A DNA stretch of 31,129 nucleotides, taken from the IMG/VR virus record IMGVR_UViG_3300031841_000887, positions 1-31,129 of that record. One strand, 5' to 3'. Shown in pieces: positions 8,559 through 14,194 of the stretch (position 1 is the first letter of the stretch; each line of letters starts with the position of its first letter). The notes below the pieces were generated by a model. It searched no databases, was not told the origin of the DNA, and was given only the letters and a program-made list of their open reading frames with translations. The stretch is from a virus. Both the position numbers and the translations under genes were made by a program.

Positions 8559-8575
8559 GTATGTTGCACACAGGT
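8559..8575 (+). repeat. 17-bp direct repeat, copy 1 (spans start codon)
   Basis: GTATGTTGCACACAGGT occurs here, covering the ATG of the DUF488 gene, and again at 8650-8666 inside that gene in a different reading frame. TATGCCAA follows each copy at similar distance. A repeat in two frames is not protein-driven and may be a regulatory site. Confidence 0.8.
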
Positions 8576-8989
8576 TACTATGCCAAGATCAAATCACACG
8601 CAGATCAGCAAAACATTGTTAGTATCAGCGTATCAACACCCAAGTGGTTGTATGTTGCACACAGGTATCAAGCACTTATGCCAAAATACCAGTTGTTGCA
8701 AAACTTTCGAAACAATCGTATCACGGAACAGCAGTATGTCGAACAGTATAACGCTATGTTGTATGCACTCGATCCACAGCAGGTTTATGACGATTTGCAC
8801 AAGTTAACTCAAAAACCAATTATCTGTTGCCATTGCAGTACCAAGCATATGTGCCACAGGCATCTAGTTGCAGACTGGTTGCAGTCTAGTTTGTCAATCA
8901 AAATACCAGAATACAAAGTAGGTAATTTAACACGTTTTCACGGACGCATCGTGCCGTCCGATCCAAGCGTACAATTAAATTTATTATGA
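8561..8989 (+). CDS. DUF488 family protein
   Basis: 142 residues with the family landmarks: an N-terminal beta strand and YYAKIK, the segment SISVSTPKW, and near the end ICCHC (88-92) then MCHRHLVADWL (97-107). The latter corresponds to the cysteine plus CHR signature of DUF488. Biochemical activity of the family is not established; conserved Cys/His residues suggest catalysis or metal binding. It is first in the enzyme cassette, 38 bp after the DnaA-like gene, with a probable own promoter, and overlaps the GNAT gene by ATGA. Confidence 0.82.
   Translation: MLHTGYYAKIKSHADQQNIVSISVSTPKWLYVAHRYQALMPKYQLLQNFRNNRITEQQYVEQYNAMLYALDPQQVYDDLHKLTQKPIICCHCSTKHMCHRHLVADWLQSSLSIKIPEYKVGNLTRFHGRIVPSDPSVQLNLL
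8650..8666 (+). repeat. 17-bp direct repeat, copy 2
   Basis: Second copy of the 17-bp sequence at 8559-8575, 91 bp downstream and within the DUF488 coding region, read in another frame. Confidence 0.8.
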
Positions 8990-9393
8990 TAGTAAAAAAA
9001 GTAACACACAAAAACCTCCACAAAGTACAGGAGTTAATCGACAACGTAGAAGACAGTAACGTTTTTTACAAAAACAATGAATACATAACCGAGACGATAG
9101 TCAAAGACGGATTGAGTATTATTGCGTATGAAGACAAAAAGCCAGTTGGCTGTATATTGGTATGTGCAGGTAACACGATAGACACAATAGTTTCGACAGA
9201 AGCAGGTGTTGGATCAAAGATGTTAGAAAAATTGCCAGAGGGTAGTTATACGGTTTTTATACACCCAGATAATGAAAGAAGTATAGCATTGTTCAGTAAA
9301 TTCAATTTTTTAAAACGAGAGAATAGAGCATTAAATTATGGAGTAAGAACAAGGTATGTTGGTAACATTAAAAAAAGAGCAGTTAAAGAATAA
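8986..9393 (+). CDS. GNAT-family N-acetyltransferase-like protein
   Basis: 135 residues. Strand pair SIIAYEDKKPVGCILV (44-59) is followed by the acetyl-CoA loop region EAGVGSKML (72-80). HPDNERSIALFSKFNF (93-108) then matches the GNAT late motif with N...A...Y/FxKxGF. Aminoacyl or acyl transfer to an amine is the family chemistry. The usual R/QxxGxG is here TEAGVG, so the CoA site may be altered. It overlaps the racemase-like gene by 38 bp, implying coupled translation. Confidence 0.75.
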   Translation: MIVKKVTHKNLHKVQELIDNVEDSNVFYKNNEYITETIVKDGLSIIAYEDKKPVGCILVCAGNTIDTIVSTEAGVGSKMLEKLPEGSYTVFIHPDNERSIALFSKFNFLKRENRALNYGVRTRYVGNIKKRAVKE

Positions 9394-10066
9394 CCTGCAA
9401 GAAATCAAATCTCGTGACAGTAATGTGGTGTTTTTAATTAAACGCCAATTATTGTTTGAAGACCTATGCGAAACGTTAAAAGACGAAAAGGTATACAGCA
9501 CTGGATCGGATCAATACGAAAACATATACGACAGCGAAGATTGTGTAGTAGTTGATGCATTCGACAATAGAGAGGGTATTACACTAGACGAAGCCAAAAC
9601 GTATAACAAGAAAAAGACTGCAATAGTAAACTTTGCTTGTTGTAATGGATTGTTGCCAACAGCACAAGAAGTAAACGAAATATACGACAAGTTGAAATCG
9701 TATGGTTGGGAAAAAGTAAGTATGGGTGGTAGTTTAATGTTGTGGTACGAAAATATCAAGGCAGACGAAATACGTGTAGGAGAAGCATTTTTAACAGGAT
9801 ATAGCACGATATACAACGAGTATTATGCAAACTGTAAAAACCCTTTCGAAGTGTTAGTAGATATACACAAAGAGAATAAAGACAACTGGATCATCAATAC
9901 AGGTTTTGAATATCTAGGTGGTTTTACGAATTGTACGCCAGAATGTGTAAATACAGACTTCACAGTAATAAGTAAAAAGCATAAAATTAAAGTAGGTAAT
10001 AAGTTGAGGTTAGAACCAGATTATTACACGCTTATGAAACTAGCATTTAATGGATATATTAGATAG
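9356..10066 (+). CDS. Compact ornithine/alanine-racemase-like PLP barrel protein
   Basis: 236 residues, whereas full fold-III racemases have 350-370. N-terminal LKNNLQEIKSRDSNVVFLIKRQ aligns by eye with the opening strand holding the PLP lysine, here Lys29. PTAQEVNEIYDKLKSYGWEK, then MGGSLMLWY (123-131) and ADEIRVGEAFLTGYSTIY (136-153) follow ornithine racemase PTEEN...GGNSS...NHLRIGEAILLG. The end (VGNKLRLEPDYYTLMKLAFNGYI) matches its C-terminal barrel domain. The middle barrel strands are shortened. A PLP enzyme making a D-amino acid or related precursor is suggested; binding-only is possible. Confidence 0.68.
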   Translation: MLVTLKKEQLKNNLQEIKSRDSNVVFLIKRQLLFEDLCETLKDEKVYSTGSDQYENIYDSEDCVVVDAFDNREGITLDEAKTYNKKKTAIVNFACCNGLLPTAQEVNEIYDKLKSYGWEKVSMGGSLMLWYENIKADEIRVGEAFLTGYSTIYNEYYANCKNPFEVLVDIHKENKDNWIINTGFEYLGGFTNCTPECVNTDFTVISKKHKIKVGNKLRLEPDYYTLMKLAFNGYIR

Positions 10067-12047
10067 AACGTTTGGACTAGAATTAGAATTTGGAGATGTA
10101 GATCGTAGTAAGGTAAAACTTCCTGCAGGTTGGGGTTGGTCTCCAAACGAAAGATCAATAGTAAACAGTAACGCTACAAAATGTACGCCCACAGGCAATA
10201 TCGGTGGAGAACTTAATACTAGACCTCTAAAAAGAACGTTAGGCGATTACAGGGAGTTAAAACAAGTAATAGACGCTTGTTATAGTGCAGGTGGTGTCAA
10301 TATGTGGAATACAGGTTTTGACGGACATTTGTATATAGGAGATCTAGAACTAGAGGATCTTAAAAAGTTATTCGTATTAGGTTATTATACGCAGACGCTT
10401 ATGTTAAAAGTGTTTGACTTCCCAGACTGGTTTGACATTGAGCATTTGTGTCCGAAGATCAAGCATAATTTTGTAGGCAGGGTAAAAGGTGCAAAAAGTA
10501 TATCAGCACTTAAAAACATATTTGCGAATTCTAGTAACGTTGGTCATTTTAGGTTTGTGATAAACATTATGCCGTACTTCAAAACAAAGACGTTGGAGTT
10601 TAGGTTTTTCAATGGTACGAGACGATATAGAGAAACGTTAGAAACTATCAATTTTATGTACAGTTTTCTGGAATACGCATTAAGCCACGATGAAGAAGAC
10701 TACAAGAAAATAGATACCGAAGAAAAATTCATAGAAGCATTTGGTATAAAGTACGATATGCCTAGACGTACAGATCCATTGATCTTTGCAGAAAGTTACG
10801 AAGTAGCAGTACGCAATATATCAAAAGGGTTTGCACCTACACGTAAGATCCTAACTGCAATTCTGCATCACACAGAGGGAAAGATCTCACTAGTCAATCC
10901 ATTTAATTACGTCAGCGAATTAGCGTTATACAGCAAACGTAAGATCAAGATATACAACAATAACGAGCATAACAAAATTGTTATGAGTTTAGCGTTAGGA
11001 GAATTAGATCTAACGTATGATAATCACTTTGCAGTATTGAATGGCTACAAAGACGGCACACCAGAACGTGAATTGTGTTTGTTTTTTATATTCAGTAAAA
11101 CGCAGAAGTTCGATATGAAGTATGACTATGCGAACCTAGAATGGCAAAGTTATCGTGCAAGAATTAAAGACAGCATTGAAAAGATCAATCCGACAGCATT
11201 AGAAATGATCAAAATGTTTAGCGAGGTAGAATATGTAGACGGCACAATAATTGACGCACTAAACAATAAAGAGACCGTAGTATATCAGCAAGAGTACAAT
11301 AGTAAAAACAATTCAACAGTAACAGCGTTAAAAAAGAACAGCAATTACAACGGATCTTATGATAGGCAGTTAGTTAGTCATCACGATCTAAACGTTTGTA
11401 GTCATTTGTTGTCGGTTAGTAAGAATGAATTTTTGCCATACGAGACAGTAGCCAAAGATATGTCGATTAGGTTATACAGCAATAAGCCAAAATACGAGGG
11501 TTTAAGGACACCAGATTTAACGCCTAAACAAATTACATATAAAACACCTCCAGACGAATTTAAGATAACGCCAGATAGCAATATAACGATACAAGAGATA
11601 CCAGTTAATATGTTTTCTGTAATACAGCAAAAGTGTGTAAAGAAAGTAAGCAAATTTAGGTCTCCTGTTTTCTCGTATGTTATTATGTGTGATGATATGG
11701 TATTAGGTGCAGTAGGTTTTGACTGGGGTAAAAATATGAAAAGCGAATACGATCTATTCGTGTTGTCAGATTTCTGCACGAACAACAATATACGACTTAT
11801 GAGTAAGTTTATACTGTTTTGCATTAAAACAAAGGAGATGAAAAAACTTGTAGAACGTAAAGGAGTACAGGCAATGAATAAAGGGTATACGTTGGTATAT
11901 ACGACTATGCCAGTATCAATGAAATACAGAGGTGCATTTAAAAAAGTAAAGAACGATAGTCCCAGAAGTTTAAAGTATGAATTTGAATTTGGATCAATGG
12001 GTACGATCAAAGACGCAATTAAGGAATATATAAAACGAACGAAATGA
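10050..12047 (+). CDS. Amidoligase-like protein fused to a Mom/acetyltransferase-like domain
   Basis: 665 residues, the second-largest gene. Residues 8-210 carry the amidoligase_2 (COOH-NH2 ligase) pattern: FGLELEFG (8-15), GGELNTRPL (52-60), GFDGHLYIG (89-97, in place of CGxHVH) and KTLEFRFFNGT (180-190). These make an ATP-dependent amide bond in the glutamine-synthetase-like fold. A middle part (about 230-510) is unassigned. Residues 520-650 (VLGAVGF, LMSKFILFCI, YTLVYTTMPVSMKYRGAF) look like Mom-type or GNAT-type acyl-transfer proteins. The fusion suggests activation and transfer of an amino-acid-like group. The reduced CGxH motif is odd. Overlaps the racemase-like gene by 17 bp. Confidence 0.65.
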   Translation: MDILDRTFGLELEFGDVDRSKVKLPAGWGWSPNERSIVNSNATKCTPTGNIGGELNTRPLKRTLGDYRELKQVIDACYSAGGVNMWNTGFDGHLYIGDLELEDLKKLFVLGYYTQTLMLKVFDFPDWFDIEHLCPKIKHNFVGRVKGAKSISALKNIFANSSNVGHFRFVINIMPYFKTKTLEFRFFNGTRRYRETLETINFMYSFLEYALSHDEEDYKKIDTEEKFIEAFGIKYDMPRRTDPLIFAESYEVAVRNISKGFAPTRKILTAILHHTEGKISLVNPFNYVSELALYSKRKIKIYNNNEHNKIVMSLALGELDLTYDNHFAVLNGYKDGTPERELCLFFIFSKTQKFDMKYDYANLEWQSYRARIKDSIEKINPTALEMIKMFSEVEYVDGTIIDALNNKETVVYQQEYNSKNNSTVTALKKNSNYNGSYDRQLVSHHDLNVCSHLLSVSKNEFLPYETVAKDMSIRLYSNKPKYEGLRTPDLTPKQITYKTPPDEFKITPDSNITIQEIPVNMFSVIQQKCVKKVSKFRSPVFSYVIMCDDMVLGAVGFDWGKNMKSEYDLFVLSDFCTNNNIRLMSKFILFCIKTKEMKKLVERKGVQAMNKGYTLVYTTMPVSMKYRGAFKKVKNDSPRSLKYEFEFGSMGTIKDAIKEYIKRTK

Positions 12048-12712
12048 TAGATAAGTGGAAAGTAAAGCAGGTAGGTGTAGAAGAAATACAGCATACCGAA
12101 GTAAACGCAAATAGTATGAGCAGAACAATGTTTGCCAGACTAAAAGCGAATATCAAAAAATCTGGATTGAGTAGTATGATCAGTTGTTATTTAACTCCAG
12201 AGGGCAAGTACGTGATCATTAGTGGAAACCACAGGTATAAAGCGTGTATTGAATTAGGGTATACGAAACTAAACATTATGTACACCGAGCAAGAAAATTT
12301 AAGTAATGACGAAATCATTGCATTGCAGTTAAGCCACAATAGTGTAACAGGAAACGATGACAAGGGTATACTTAAAAGACTATTCGAAGAAATCAGTAGT
12401 ATAGAATTTAAAGAGTTTGCTAGTATTAGTGTAGACGATATGGAAATAGAGGATCTGTTCACTGGATCAATAGTACCAGTGCAGGAACACTATCGTGTAA
12501 GTTTAATTTTGTACAGCAAGGATATTGAAGCATTGCAGGATCTGTTGCAAATCACTAAACAGGAAGTCAATACAGCAGATATGGTAATAGTAGCAGACGG
12601 AGACAACGAAAGTTACTTTATTGAGCAAATGAGTAGGATCAAAAAAGAATTTGAAATCAAAAGTAGCAGTATAGCATTTAGCAAGTTGCTAGAAATAAAA
12701 CTAGAAGAATGA
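12044..12712 (+). CDS. ParB/Srx-fold protein next to terminase
   Basis: 222 residues. The N-terminal 90 residues fit the ParB/sulfiredoxin fold: HTEVNANSMSRTMFARLKANI, then YVIISGNHRYKACIELGY (56-73), where GNHRYKA is the GxxRxxA motif of ParB nucleotide-binding nuclease domains. A charged helical middle and an alpha/beta C-terminal part follow. ParB-like proteins commonly sit just before the small terminase in related phages, so it may aid packaging or site recognition. It also ends the modification cassette with an ATGA overlap, and could have a role there instead. Confidence 0.82.
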   Translation: MIDKWKVKQVGVEEIQHTEVNANSMSRTMFARLKANIKKSGLSSMISCYLTPEGKYVIISGNHRYKACIELGYTKLNIMYTEQENLSNDEIIALQLSHNSVTGNDDKGILKRLFEEISSIEFKEFASISVDDMEIEDLFTGSIVPVQEHYRVSLILYSKDIEALQDLLQITKQEVNTADMVIVADGDNESYFIEQMSRIKKEFEIKSSSIAFSKLLEIKLEE

Positions 12713-13062
12713 AGAATATAAAGCAGAAAGATATTATTGATGTGTTCAGAAAGAAAGGTTGTAATATATCAGCCACTTGTAACGCACTGGGTATCAGTAG
12801 GCAAACGTACTATAATTGGTTGAAGAATGACGAGGATCTAAAAATAGAAATAGAAGATAGCAAGGAAGCAGTATTAGACAATGTAGAAAGCAAATTATTA
12901 GCAGCGATCAATGACGGCAATATAACGGCAATCATTTTTTACTTAAAGACCAAAGGTAAGCATAGAGGATATGTAGAACGAAACGAAATAACAGGTGCAG
13001 ACGGAGAAAAACTGTTTGAGGTAAAAATAATAGATACGATTGAGGACGATACTGACGAATAA
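12709..13062 (+). CDS. terS: Terminase small subunit
   Basis: 117 residues. An N-terminal helix-turn-helix (KGCNISATCNALGISRQTYYNWLKND, near 16-41) would bind the packaging start site. The following helices and AIIFYLKTKGKHRGYVER (74-91) are the typical end of Bacteroidetes-phage small terminases. It overlaps ParB-like gene and large terminase. The DUF-like tail is acidic. Confidence 0.87.
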   Translation: MKNIKQKDIIDVFRKKGCNISATCNALGISRQTYYNWLKNDEDLKIEIEDSKEAVLDNVESKLLAAINDGNITAIIFYLKTKGKHRGYVERNEITGADGEKLFEVKIIDTIEDDTDE

Positions 13063-14194
13063 GGTATTTAAGAAATTACAGAAATGTGATCAGAAGATAC
13101 ACGTACAGCAAGGAGGTACGAGATCTGGTAAGACATATAACATACTGTTGTGGATCATTTTTGCGTATTGTCAACGTGAAAAAAACAAAATGGTTACGAT
13201 AGTTAGAAAATCATTCCCTGCAGTTAGAGGTACAGTAATGCGAGACTTTTTTCAGATCTTGCAGGATCACGAATTGTATCACGAGGACTTTCATAGCAAA
13301 TCAGAAAGCACGTATAAGATCAATAGTAATACGGTAGAATTTATAAGTTTGGATCAACCTACCAAAATACGAGGTAGAAAACGAGACTTGCTATATGTGA
13401 ACGAATGCAATGAATTGAATTACGAAGATTGGCAACAGTTGATATTCAGAACAAGCGAGAAAGTAGTAATTGACTACAATCCGTCAGATGAATTTCACTG
13501 GATCTACGATAAAGTACTCACGAGAGAGGACTGTGCATTTCACAAGACAACGTATAAAGACAATCCGTTTTTAAGTAAAGTGATCATAGACGAGATAGAA
13601 CGCCTTAAAGAAACAGACGAACAGTACTGGAGGGTATACGGTCTAGGAGAAAGAGGACAAAACAGAAGTTTGGTATTCAAGTTTCAGACGTGTCCGAAAG
13701 TACCTGCAACAGCAAAGTTGATCGGCAGAGGTATGGACTTTGGTTTCACGAATGATCCAACAGCATTAGTAGAAACGTGGGCAGACGGTACGAATATGTA
13801 CATTAGGGAATTGATATTTAGACGAGGTATGACAAACAAGGATATTGCAGATGAATTGAAATCGCTAGGTCTAGATAGACGAGATGAAATCTGGTGTGAT
13901 AGTGCAGAACCAAAAAGTATTGAGGAATTGCATAGATTAGGTTGGAATACGAAAAGCACGTATAAAGGAGAAATCAATTTAGGTATTGATATGTTGCGAA
14001 GATATACGCTGCACGTTACAGAAGATAGTACGAACGTAATTAAGGAGATGCGTAACTACAAGTTTATAGAAGACAAGTCTGGAAACCTCACAAACAAGCC
14101 AGAGGACAAAAACAATCACAGTCTAGATGCCCTGCGTTATAGTATATTAAACAAGTTAAGCCGTCCGAATTATGGAAAGTATGCAATCAGATAA
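13040..14194 (+). CDS. terL: Terminase large subunit, packaging ATPase and nuclease
   Basis: 384 residues. Walker A is GGTRSGKT (25-32), Walker B LLYVNE (117-122) with the catalytic Glu. The C-terminal RNase H-like nuclease has Asp233 (GMDFGFTND), Asp288 (WCDSAEP) and Asp363 (SLDALRYS). This is the headful-type Terminase_3/6 pattern. No ATG exists before the Walker A motif; the only plausible start is TTG 13040, 23 bp inside the small-subunit gene, suggesting translational coupling and low initiation. The gene is separated from the portal by 13 kb. Confidence 0.93.
   Translation: MRTILTNKVFKKLQKCDQKIHVQQGGTRSGKTYNILLWIIFAYCQREKNKMVTIVRKSFPAVRGTVMRDFFQILQDHELYHEDFHSKSESTYKINSNTVEFISLDQPTKIRGRKRDLLYVNECNELNYEDWQQLIFRTSEKVVIDYNPSDEFHWIYDKVLTREDCAFHKTTYKDNPFLSKVIIDEIERLKETDEQYWRVYGLGERGQNRSLVFKFQTCPKVPATAKLIGRGMDFGFTNDPTALVETWADGTNMYIRELIFRRGMTNKDIADELKSLGLDRRDEIWCDSAEPKSIEELHRLGWNTKSTYKGEINLGIDMLRRYTLHVTEDSTNVIKEMRNYKFIEDKSGNLTNKPEDKNNHSLDALRYSILNKLSRPNYGKYAIR

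Follow-up and report, generated by a model that had tools for sequence, protein, structure and literature searches.

We analysed a 31,129-nucleotide (nt) stretch of viral DNA (hereafter the window; positions 1 to 31,129 of IMG/VR record IMGVR_UViG_3300031841_000887, a phage record). Five overlapping genes lie at 8561-12712, and their products are, in order, a DUF488 protein, a small GNAT-like protein, a compact fold-III pyridoxal phosphate (PLP) enzyme, a three-domain protein that begins with an amidoligase, and a ParB-like protein. This gene set is more than a chance assembly: it is real, conserved and modular, and on balance we favour the view that it specifies a phage pathway that would couple a non-standard amino acid, through an amide, to the DNA of the phage itself ahead of packaging. 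Exactly one amino-acid-altering enzyme accompanies the amidoligase in 32 of 35 non-redundant systems, being a racemase-like protein in 14, an opine dehydrogenase in 13 and a saccharopine-type dehydrogenase in five, with no two ever found together; three systems have none, one of them on a contig that is cut off.

The five genes had been singled out in an original prediction, made from the sequence alone, and all of the motifs quoted there were found: CHRH in open reading frame (ORF) 1, HPDNERSIALFSKF in ORF2, Lys29 and RVGEA in ORF3, and the amidoligase motifs GGELNTRPL, GFDGHLYIG and KTLEFRFFNGT in ORF4. Its central proposal of an amino-acid-handling, amide-forming conjugation route gains support from the predicted fold, from the kept motifs and from the exchange of the racemase for opine or saccharopine-type dehydrogenases in sister systems. 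All five ORFs lie on the + strand with successive overlaps of 4, 38, 17 and 4 nt, and the ParB ORF overlaps by 4 nt the ORF of the terminase small subunit (12709-13062), which is followed by the large subunit:

8561-8989, + strand: DUF488 protein (N3a 'active' subclade), 142 amino acids (aa) (ORF1; Pfam)
8986-9393, + strand: small GNAT-like acyltransferase, accessory, 135 aa (ORF2; weak Pfam GNAT matches)
9356-10066, + strand: compact fold-III PLP enzyme, proposed amino-acid epimerase, 236 aa (ORF3; model and Foldseek)
9440-9442, + strand: codon of the putative PLP lysine, Lys29, of ORF3 (alignment and model)
10050-12047, + strand: three-domain protein (amidoligase, degenerate DAM-like, GNAT-phage-like), 665 aa (ORF4; Pfam; phrog_2443 amidoligase enzyme, 3.4e-42)
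10050-10754, + strand: amidoligase (COOH-NH2 ligase) domain, residues about 1-235 of ORF4 (Pfam, alignment)
10851-11279, + strand: degenerate 'DNA adenine methylase-like' domain PF22556 'DAM-like-phage2', residues 268-410 of ORF4 (Pfam, 1.9e-18)
11574-12041, + strand: GNAT-phage-like domain PF22559, residues 509-664 of ORF4 (Pfam 3.3e-25, Foldseek, alignment)
12044-12712, + strand: ParB/Srx-like protein (phrog_7405) with an SGNHR motif, 222 aa (ORF5; Pfam, PHROG)
12709-13062, + strand: terminase small subunit (Pfam, PHROG)
13040-14194, + strand: terminase large subunit (Terminase_3, 1.3e-25)

The neighbourhood search suggested in the original prediction revealed that the order DUF488-(GNAT)-racemase-amidoligase-ParB recurs in divergent phages (loci L002/L003, L004, L016-L019, L020, L026 and L030/L031). 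Of these, L002/L003 are close relatives of the window, L004 encodes a large protein 54% identical to ORF4 and an upstream terminase that is 27% alike, and L020, on a contig binned as a Gastranaerophilales metagenome-assembled genome, has a different terminase type. Since the same genes are found in the same order in phages with unrelated terminases, they constitute a real mobile module. Among GenBank phages there was no near-identical match to the window. A scan of viral contigs, seeded on the GNAT-phage-like domain only and retaining the best 80 of 319 relatives, that is, the loci most like the window's own domain, added 73 loci not already collected: 36 of the amidoligase type, 32 in which a methylase-like domain takes the place of the amidoligase, and five incomplete ones, IMG/VR contigs being possible fragments. 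ParB was present in all 36 amidoligase-type loci and DUF488 in 35 of them, and the corresponding counts for the methylase-like type were 31/32 and 26/32. Control loci selected by DUF488 yielded ParB in 2/51 and the GNAT-phage-like domain in 1/51, and the stand-alone amidoligase loci L009-L013 had none of the partners (0/5). DUF488 is thus a core gene of the module, and the terminase small subunit adjoins ParB in nearly all amidoligase-type loci. E-values from our home-made profiles apply to small sets. At L063:6890-8143, a DUF488 gene is followed directly by a ParB-like gene, without a GNAT-phage-like gene, and a ThiF/E1-like gene amid PRTRC-like neighbours, read from the sequence by eye, lies just upstream of the cassette at L103:2491-3288 and L110:2010-2819.

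The exchange of the amino-acid enzyme was traced in both gene content and phylogeny. The opine dehydrogenases match Octopine_DH (1.6e-27) and N-(1-D-carboxylethyl)-L-norvaline dehydrogenase (PDB 1bg6, 2e-18), and the saccharopine-type enzymes match PDB 8dda (1e-27). The octopine/nopaline-type gene lies between DUF488 and the amidoligase at L126:4329-5414 and 13 other loci of the same cluster, and downstream in L117; the saccharopine-dehydrogenase-like (lysine-ketoglutarate reductase type) gene is found directly 3′ of parB at L104:5221-6426, L107:6940-8169 and L109:4058-5269, and after parB also in L105, L106, L108, L113, L115 and L116. Whole-record searches with positive controls recovered no racemase in the tested opine and saccharopine-type records, and no opine dehydrogenase in the tested racemase and saccharopine-type records. 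None of the three enzymes was seen in L133 or in the 32 loci of the methylase-like branch. A D-Ala-D-Ala-ligase-like ATP-grasp gene (Dala_Dala_lig_C, 2.5e-14) accompanies 13/13 opine, 4/14 racemase and 0/5 saccharopine-type systems. On the tree, the opine and saccharopine-type systems form one clade each, both nested within the racemase systems, for two changes overall. All three enzymes are predicted to yield unusual amino acids, either as epimers or with a keto acid joined to the nitrogen, and their strict coupling to the amidoligase suggests that the latter consumes their product.

The amidoligase domain passes the Pfam cut-off for Amidoligase_2 (PF12224; 3.8e-7, 30.7 versus 22 bits, residues 54-205), which is also matched in L026, L030 and L110, although the protein gave no match when its sequence was compared with PDB. 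Residues E11, E13, E54, H93, R168 and T181-x-E183-x-R185 are conserved in at least 95% of the 35 non-redundant systems, bearing out its original designation and making ATP-dependent amide-bond formation its predicted activity. The middle domain of ORF4, overlooked in the original prediction, is homologous by HHalign (prob 94.5, E 8e-8, 172 aligned columns) to a domain found in other phages, DAM-like-phage1, in which a methylase-like motif I, GCSGNFT, is accompanied by a variable motif IV (NPPT in phage Brigit, SFPPTY elsewhere). ORF4 does not have the hallmarks of an active DNA adenine methylase: it lacks the G-rich S-adenosylmethionine-binding motif I and the (D/N/S)PP(Y/F/W) motif IV, the corresponding positions reading VNPFNY and YQQEY. 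As both methylase-like motifs have been lost in the window version, the domain is probably a non-catalytic remnant, which perhaps binds DNA.

The racemase-like protein ORF3 matched nothing by sequence in Pfam, NCBIfam or PDB, including comparison of racemase profiles with PDB. No such protein was found in GenBank phages, nor any fold match to it at E ≤ 0.001 among the viral structures of BFVD. Its AlphaFold2 model (predicted local distance difference test, pLDDT, 89.9; predicted template modelling score, pTM, 0.86), which along with that of the GNAT-phage-like domain is one of the two structural models underlying our fold claims, matches D-threonine aldolase, alanine racemase and D-serine dehydratase in PDB (Foldseek prob 1.00, E 4e-9), and we are confident in modelling it as a fold-III PLP barrel of the alanine-racemase type. 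Lys29 sits immediately after strand 24-28 of the model, and the PLP lysine is kept wherever the column can be read: in 8/8 close relatives and in 8/9 rows when divergent members are included, the ninth row being trimmed there. Further invariant positions are R72-E73-G74, C95, R140, G142 and Y223. The original description as a compact ornithine-racemase-like barrel is therefore retained for the fold and dropped for the substrate, since sequence searches gave no match and none of the 50 best folds was so named. D-serine dehydratases keep metal-binding His and Cys residues; this family has P-D/N-Y in their place, which makes a metal-dependent dehydratase seem a less likely assignment than an epimerase or racemase.

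Residues 509-664 of ORF4 pass the Pfam cut-off for the GNAT-phage-like family PF22559 (3.3e-25, 89 bits) and carry its signature SDF...TxxYTxxPVSMKYRG. The model of this domain, of moderate quality (pLDDT 71 overall), has the GNAT fold, matching several GNATs (Foldseek prob 1.00, E 3.5e-4), and HHalign relates it to the same domain in proteins of the type found in Gordonia phage Clawz (prob 99.3). The original prediction had called this end of the protein Mom-like; the GNAT fold stood up to comparison and homology to Mom did not, as HHalign against eight Mom proteins gave E 0.06 (prob 0.9%) with shallow profiles and 0.004 (prob 8.5%) with deep ones, the solved Mom structure 8bv8 was absent from the 50 best Foldseek matches, and Mom matches only its own Pfam family (PF25680). 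A Mom-family acetyltransferase gene does lie directly 3′ of a ParB-like gene in Microbacterium phage Antuna (gp48-49, L037:2469-3621), so that pairing with ParB extends beyond the GNAT-phage-like family. The separate small protein ORF2 has weak Pfam GNAT matches (E 0.03) and a STEAGVGSKM stretch resembling an acyl-CoA loop. In L004, a GNAT of the ORF2 type is fused to a CxxxxCxxCC (YkgJ-like) domain, and a separate CxxxxCxxCC protein is inserted within the cassette in L016-L019. Such metal-binding-type proteins are joined to the cassette at L016:1652-2074, L019:8151-8591 and L020:10709-11104, and the one in L020, 3′ of parB, is the sole match to PF03692 (CxxCxxCC, 5.5e-11) among the L016, L019 and L020 proteins.

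ORF1 passes the Pfam cut-off for DUF488-N3a (PF22751; 2.6e-11, 44.3 versus 27 bits), and C90-H91-C92 and C98-H99-R100-H101, the latter being the CHRH motif, are invariant, in line with its original assignment. ORF5 is ParB-like (phrog_7405; ParB_N at 5e-5 and 23.7 bits, under the Pfam cut-off of 26.3), and is similar to the ParB portion of DNA methyltransferases from phages (phrog_498, 2e-12; PADLOC MTase_II, 4e-5). The ParB of the original prediction survives in this sense, and not as a canonical ParABS partition protein: TIGR00180 scored 27.7 versus the 58.45 bits needed, and no partner ParA was found, the 31-kb record, which may be incomplete, giving no match to a ParA-type ATPase (AAA_31) where control genomes were positive. 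Among the known defence systems in PADLOC, only weak DUF488-candidate and ParB-methyltransferase matches were obtained. An archaeal ParB-DUF488-helix-turn-helix fusion that binds cytidine triphosphate has been reported (PMC12704722), providing a second link between the ParB and DUF488 families. DUF4417, reported in the same paper to be fused to ParB folds in phages, is encoded in the opine clade at L133:4660-5385 (8.7e-33) and L128:9392-10168.

In the scheme that we favour, for which we infer the catalytic activities, the order of steps, the identity of the amino acid, the DNA target and protection from host nucleases, the constant core would comprise DUF488, ParB and a protein of two or three domains, the last of them GNAT-phage-like. 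In the amidoligase branch, including the window, one swappable enzyme would prepare the building block, being a PLP racemase/epimerase here and an opine or saccharopine-type dehydrogenase, joining an amino acid to a keto acid, in sister phages. The amidoligase, with or without the ATP-grasp partner, would activate a carboxylate with ATP and then form the amide; the GNAT domains would add or transfer an acyl group, and the degenerate methylase-like domain and ParB would recruit the activity to DNA. DNA is favoured as the target by the methylase-like ancestry, by the resemblance of ORF5 to ParB regions within phage DNA methyltransferases, by the position of the cassette next to the terminase genes, and by the general use of variable-chemistry modification against nucleases. 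Because a core of methylase-like domain, GNAT, ParB and DUF488 exists elsewhere without amino-acid enzymes, the amidoligase branch looks like a core modification machine upgraded with a custom building block. We put forward more tentatively, as a possibility, that DNA bases are decorated with opines or D-amino acids, the building-block enzyme being exchanged while the ligase-transferase-ParB core stays constant.

Several points weigh against this scheme. DNA as the target is itself inferred, and ParB-like and amidoligase proteins have non-DNA roles too. The methylase reading of the DAM-like domain comes from its Pfam name and motif resemblance, and comparison of its sequence with PDB gave chance matches only, with no methyltransferase. 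An RxxGxG acyl-CoA loop is not evident in the GNAT-phage-like domain, and DUF488, though a core gene, is left without an assigned step. Finally, there are only two enzyme swaps on the tree, so that mutual exclusion does not represent many independent events.

It is unlikely, though worth serious thought, that the amidoligase/ATP-grasp/GNAT set instead modifies a protein, such as ParB, the terminase small subunit, or another virion or host protein (e.g. RNA polymerase), with an amino acid or opine. Protein modification is a known or predicted role of GNATs, ATP-grasp ligases and amidoligases; in phages, GNATs that target RNA polymerase have been described, as have ATP-grasp proteins predicted to be peptide ligases (PMC7824862), and ParB and the terminase small subunit are always near the cassette. 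Many fold matches of the GNAT-phage-like domain are protein N-terminal acetyltransferases (Naa50, NatC), but GNAT fold matches are not substrate-specific, and the core is paired with a methylase-like domain in almost half of the loci and nearly everywhere with a ParB that resembles part of phage DNA methyltransferases. We give still less credence to a small-molecule or cell-wall pathway, yielding a free D-amino-acid or opine conjugate or altered host peptidoglycan, for example in superinfection exclusion. Cell-wall or opine metabolism is the classic setting of racemase, opine dehydrogenase and D-Ala-D-Ala-type ligase, and for phage amidoligase modules a role at the cell wall or cell surface has been proposed (PMC11945000, PMC11318856); however, those modules carry a gamma-glutamyl cyclotransferase or aminohydrolase, neither of which we saw, the surroundings of the cassette showed no conspicuous transporter or secretion gene, and the amidoligase shares its polypeptide with DAM-like and GNAT domains, with ParB always adjacent and DUF488 nearly always. 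That adenine receives a Mom-type acyl modification, with nothing but the GNAT-phage-like domain mattering and the amino-acid genes accessory or in decay, is highly improbable in spite of the shared superfamily and the Mom-ParB adjacency in Antuna, given the failure of Mom to match by profile or among the top folds, and given that the motif residues of the amidoligase and racemase are kept, indicating that these genes are not decaying.

Comparison with known systems brings out what sets the DNA-modification scheme apart. Mom of phage Mu (PDB 8bv8) is likewise a GNAT-superfamily phage protein that acts on DNA right before packaging and sometimes adjoins a ParB gene, but it has no significant profile link, a different domain context, and no amidoligase, racemase or opine enzymes. 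Cultured phages from four host genera carry the simpler, methylase-like branch. Clawz (Gordonia; gp29-30), Megabear (Mycobacterium; gp70-71), Brigit (Faecalibacterium) and ValentiniPuff (Microbacterium; gp1-2) encode homologous GNAT-phage-like and methylase-like (DAM-like-phage1) domains next to ParB, with DUF488 in Brigit (adjoining the gene pair), Megabear and ValentiniPuff, but lack the amidoligase and amino-acid enzyme, and are annotated as hypothetical protein or DNA methyltransferase. Thymidine hypermodification pathways also place amino-acid-derived groups on phage DNA by means of PLP and acyltransferase enzymes, but use kinase/pyrophosphorylase chemistry on hydroxymethyl-deoxyuridine and are not known to employ an amidoligase with a racemase or opine dehydrogenase. 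Phage amidoligase modules with GGCT/ATP-grasp (PMC11945000, PMC11318856, and Iyer et al. 2009 as cited there) share the amidoligase domain and sometimes the ATP-grasp, but none of DUF488, ParB, the GNAT-phage-like domain, a racemase and an opine dehydrogenase figures in the descriptions given by the two former papers. At the left end of the window, 652-1594 encodes the lysis genes Amidase_2 (1.6e-15) and a three-transmembrane holin of gene-transfer-agent type (3e-13).

No description of the system was found in the open-access papers searched, although prior recognition, for example in the Pfam curation that gave these domains their names, is possible; the single domains are known to Pfam, and the system and its enzyme swap seem new. 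With either target, the enzymes represent unexplored ligases and racemases. If a protein is modified, this would be a new phage route for conjugating non-standard amino acids. If DNA is the target, no earlier case of an amino acid or opine amide-linked to genomic DNA would be known to us, and the means of changing the attached group would be part of the system itself, as arms races with restriction enzymes would lead one to expect. Should the exchangeable enzyme indeed supply such groups to DNA, these phages would possess an interchangeable DNA-decoration toolkit, and a decoration of a kind not yet described.

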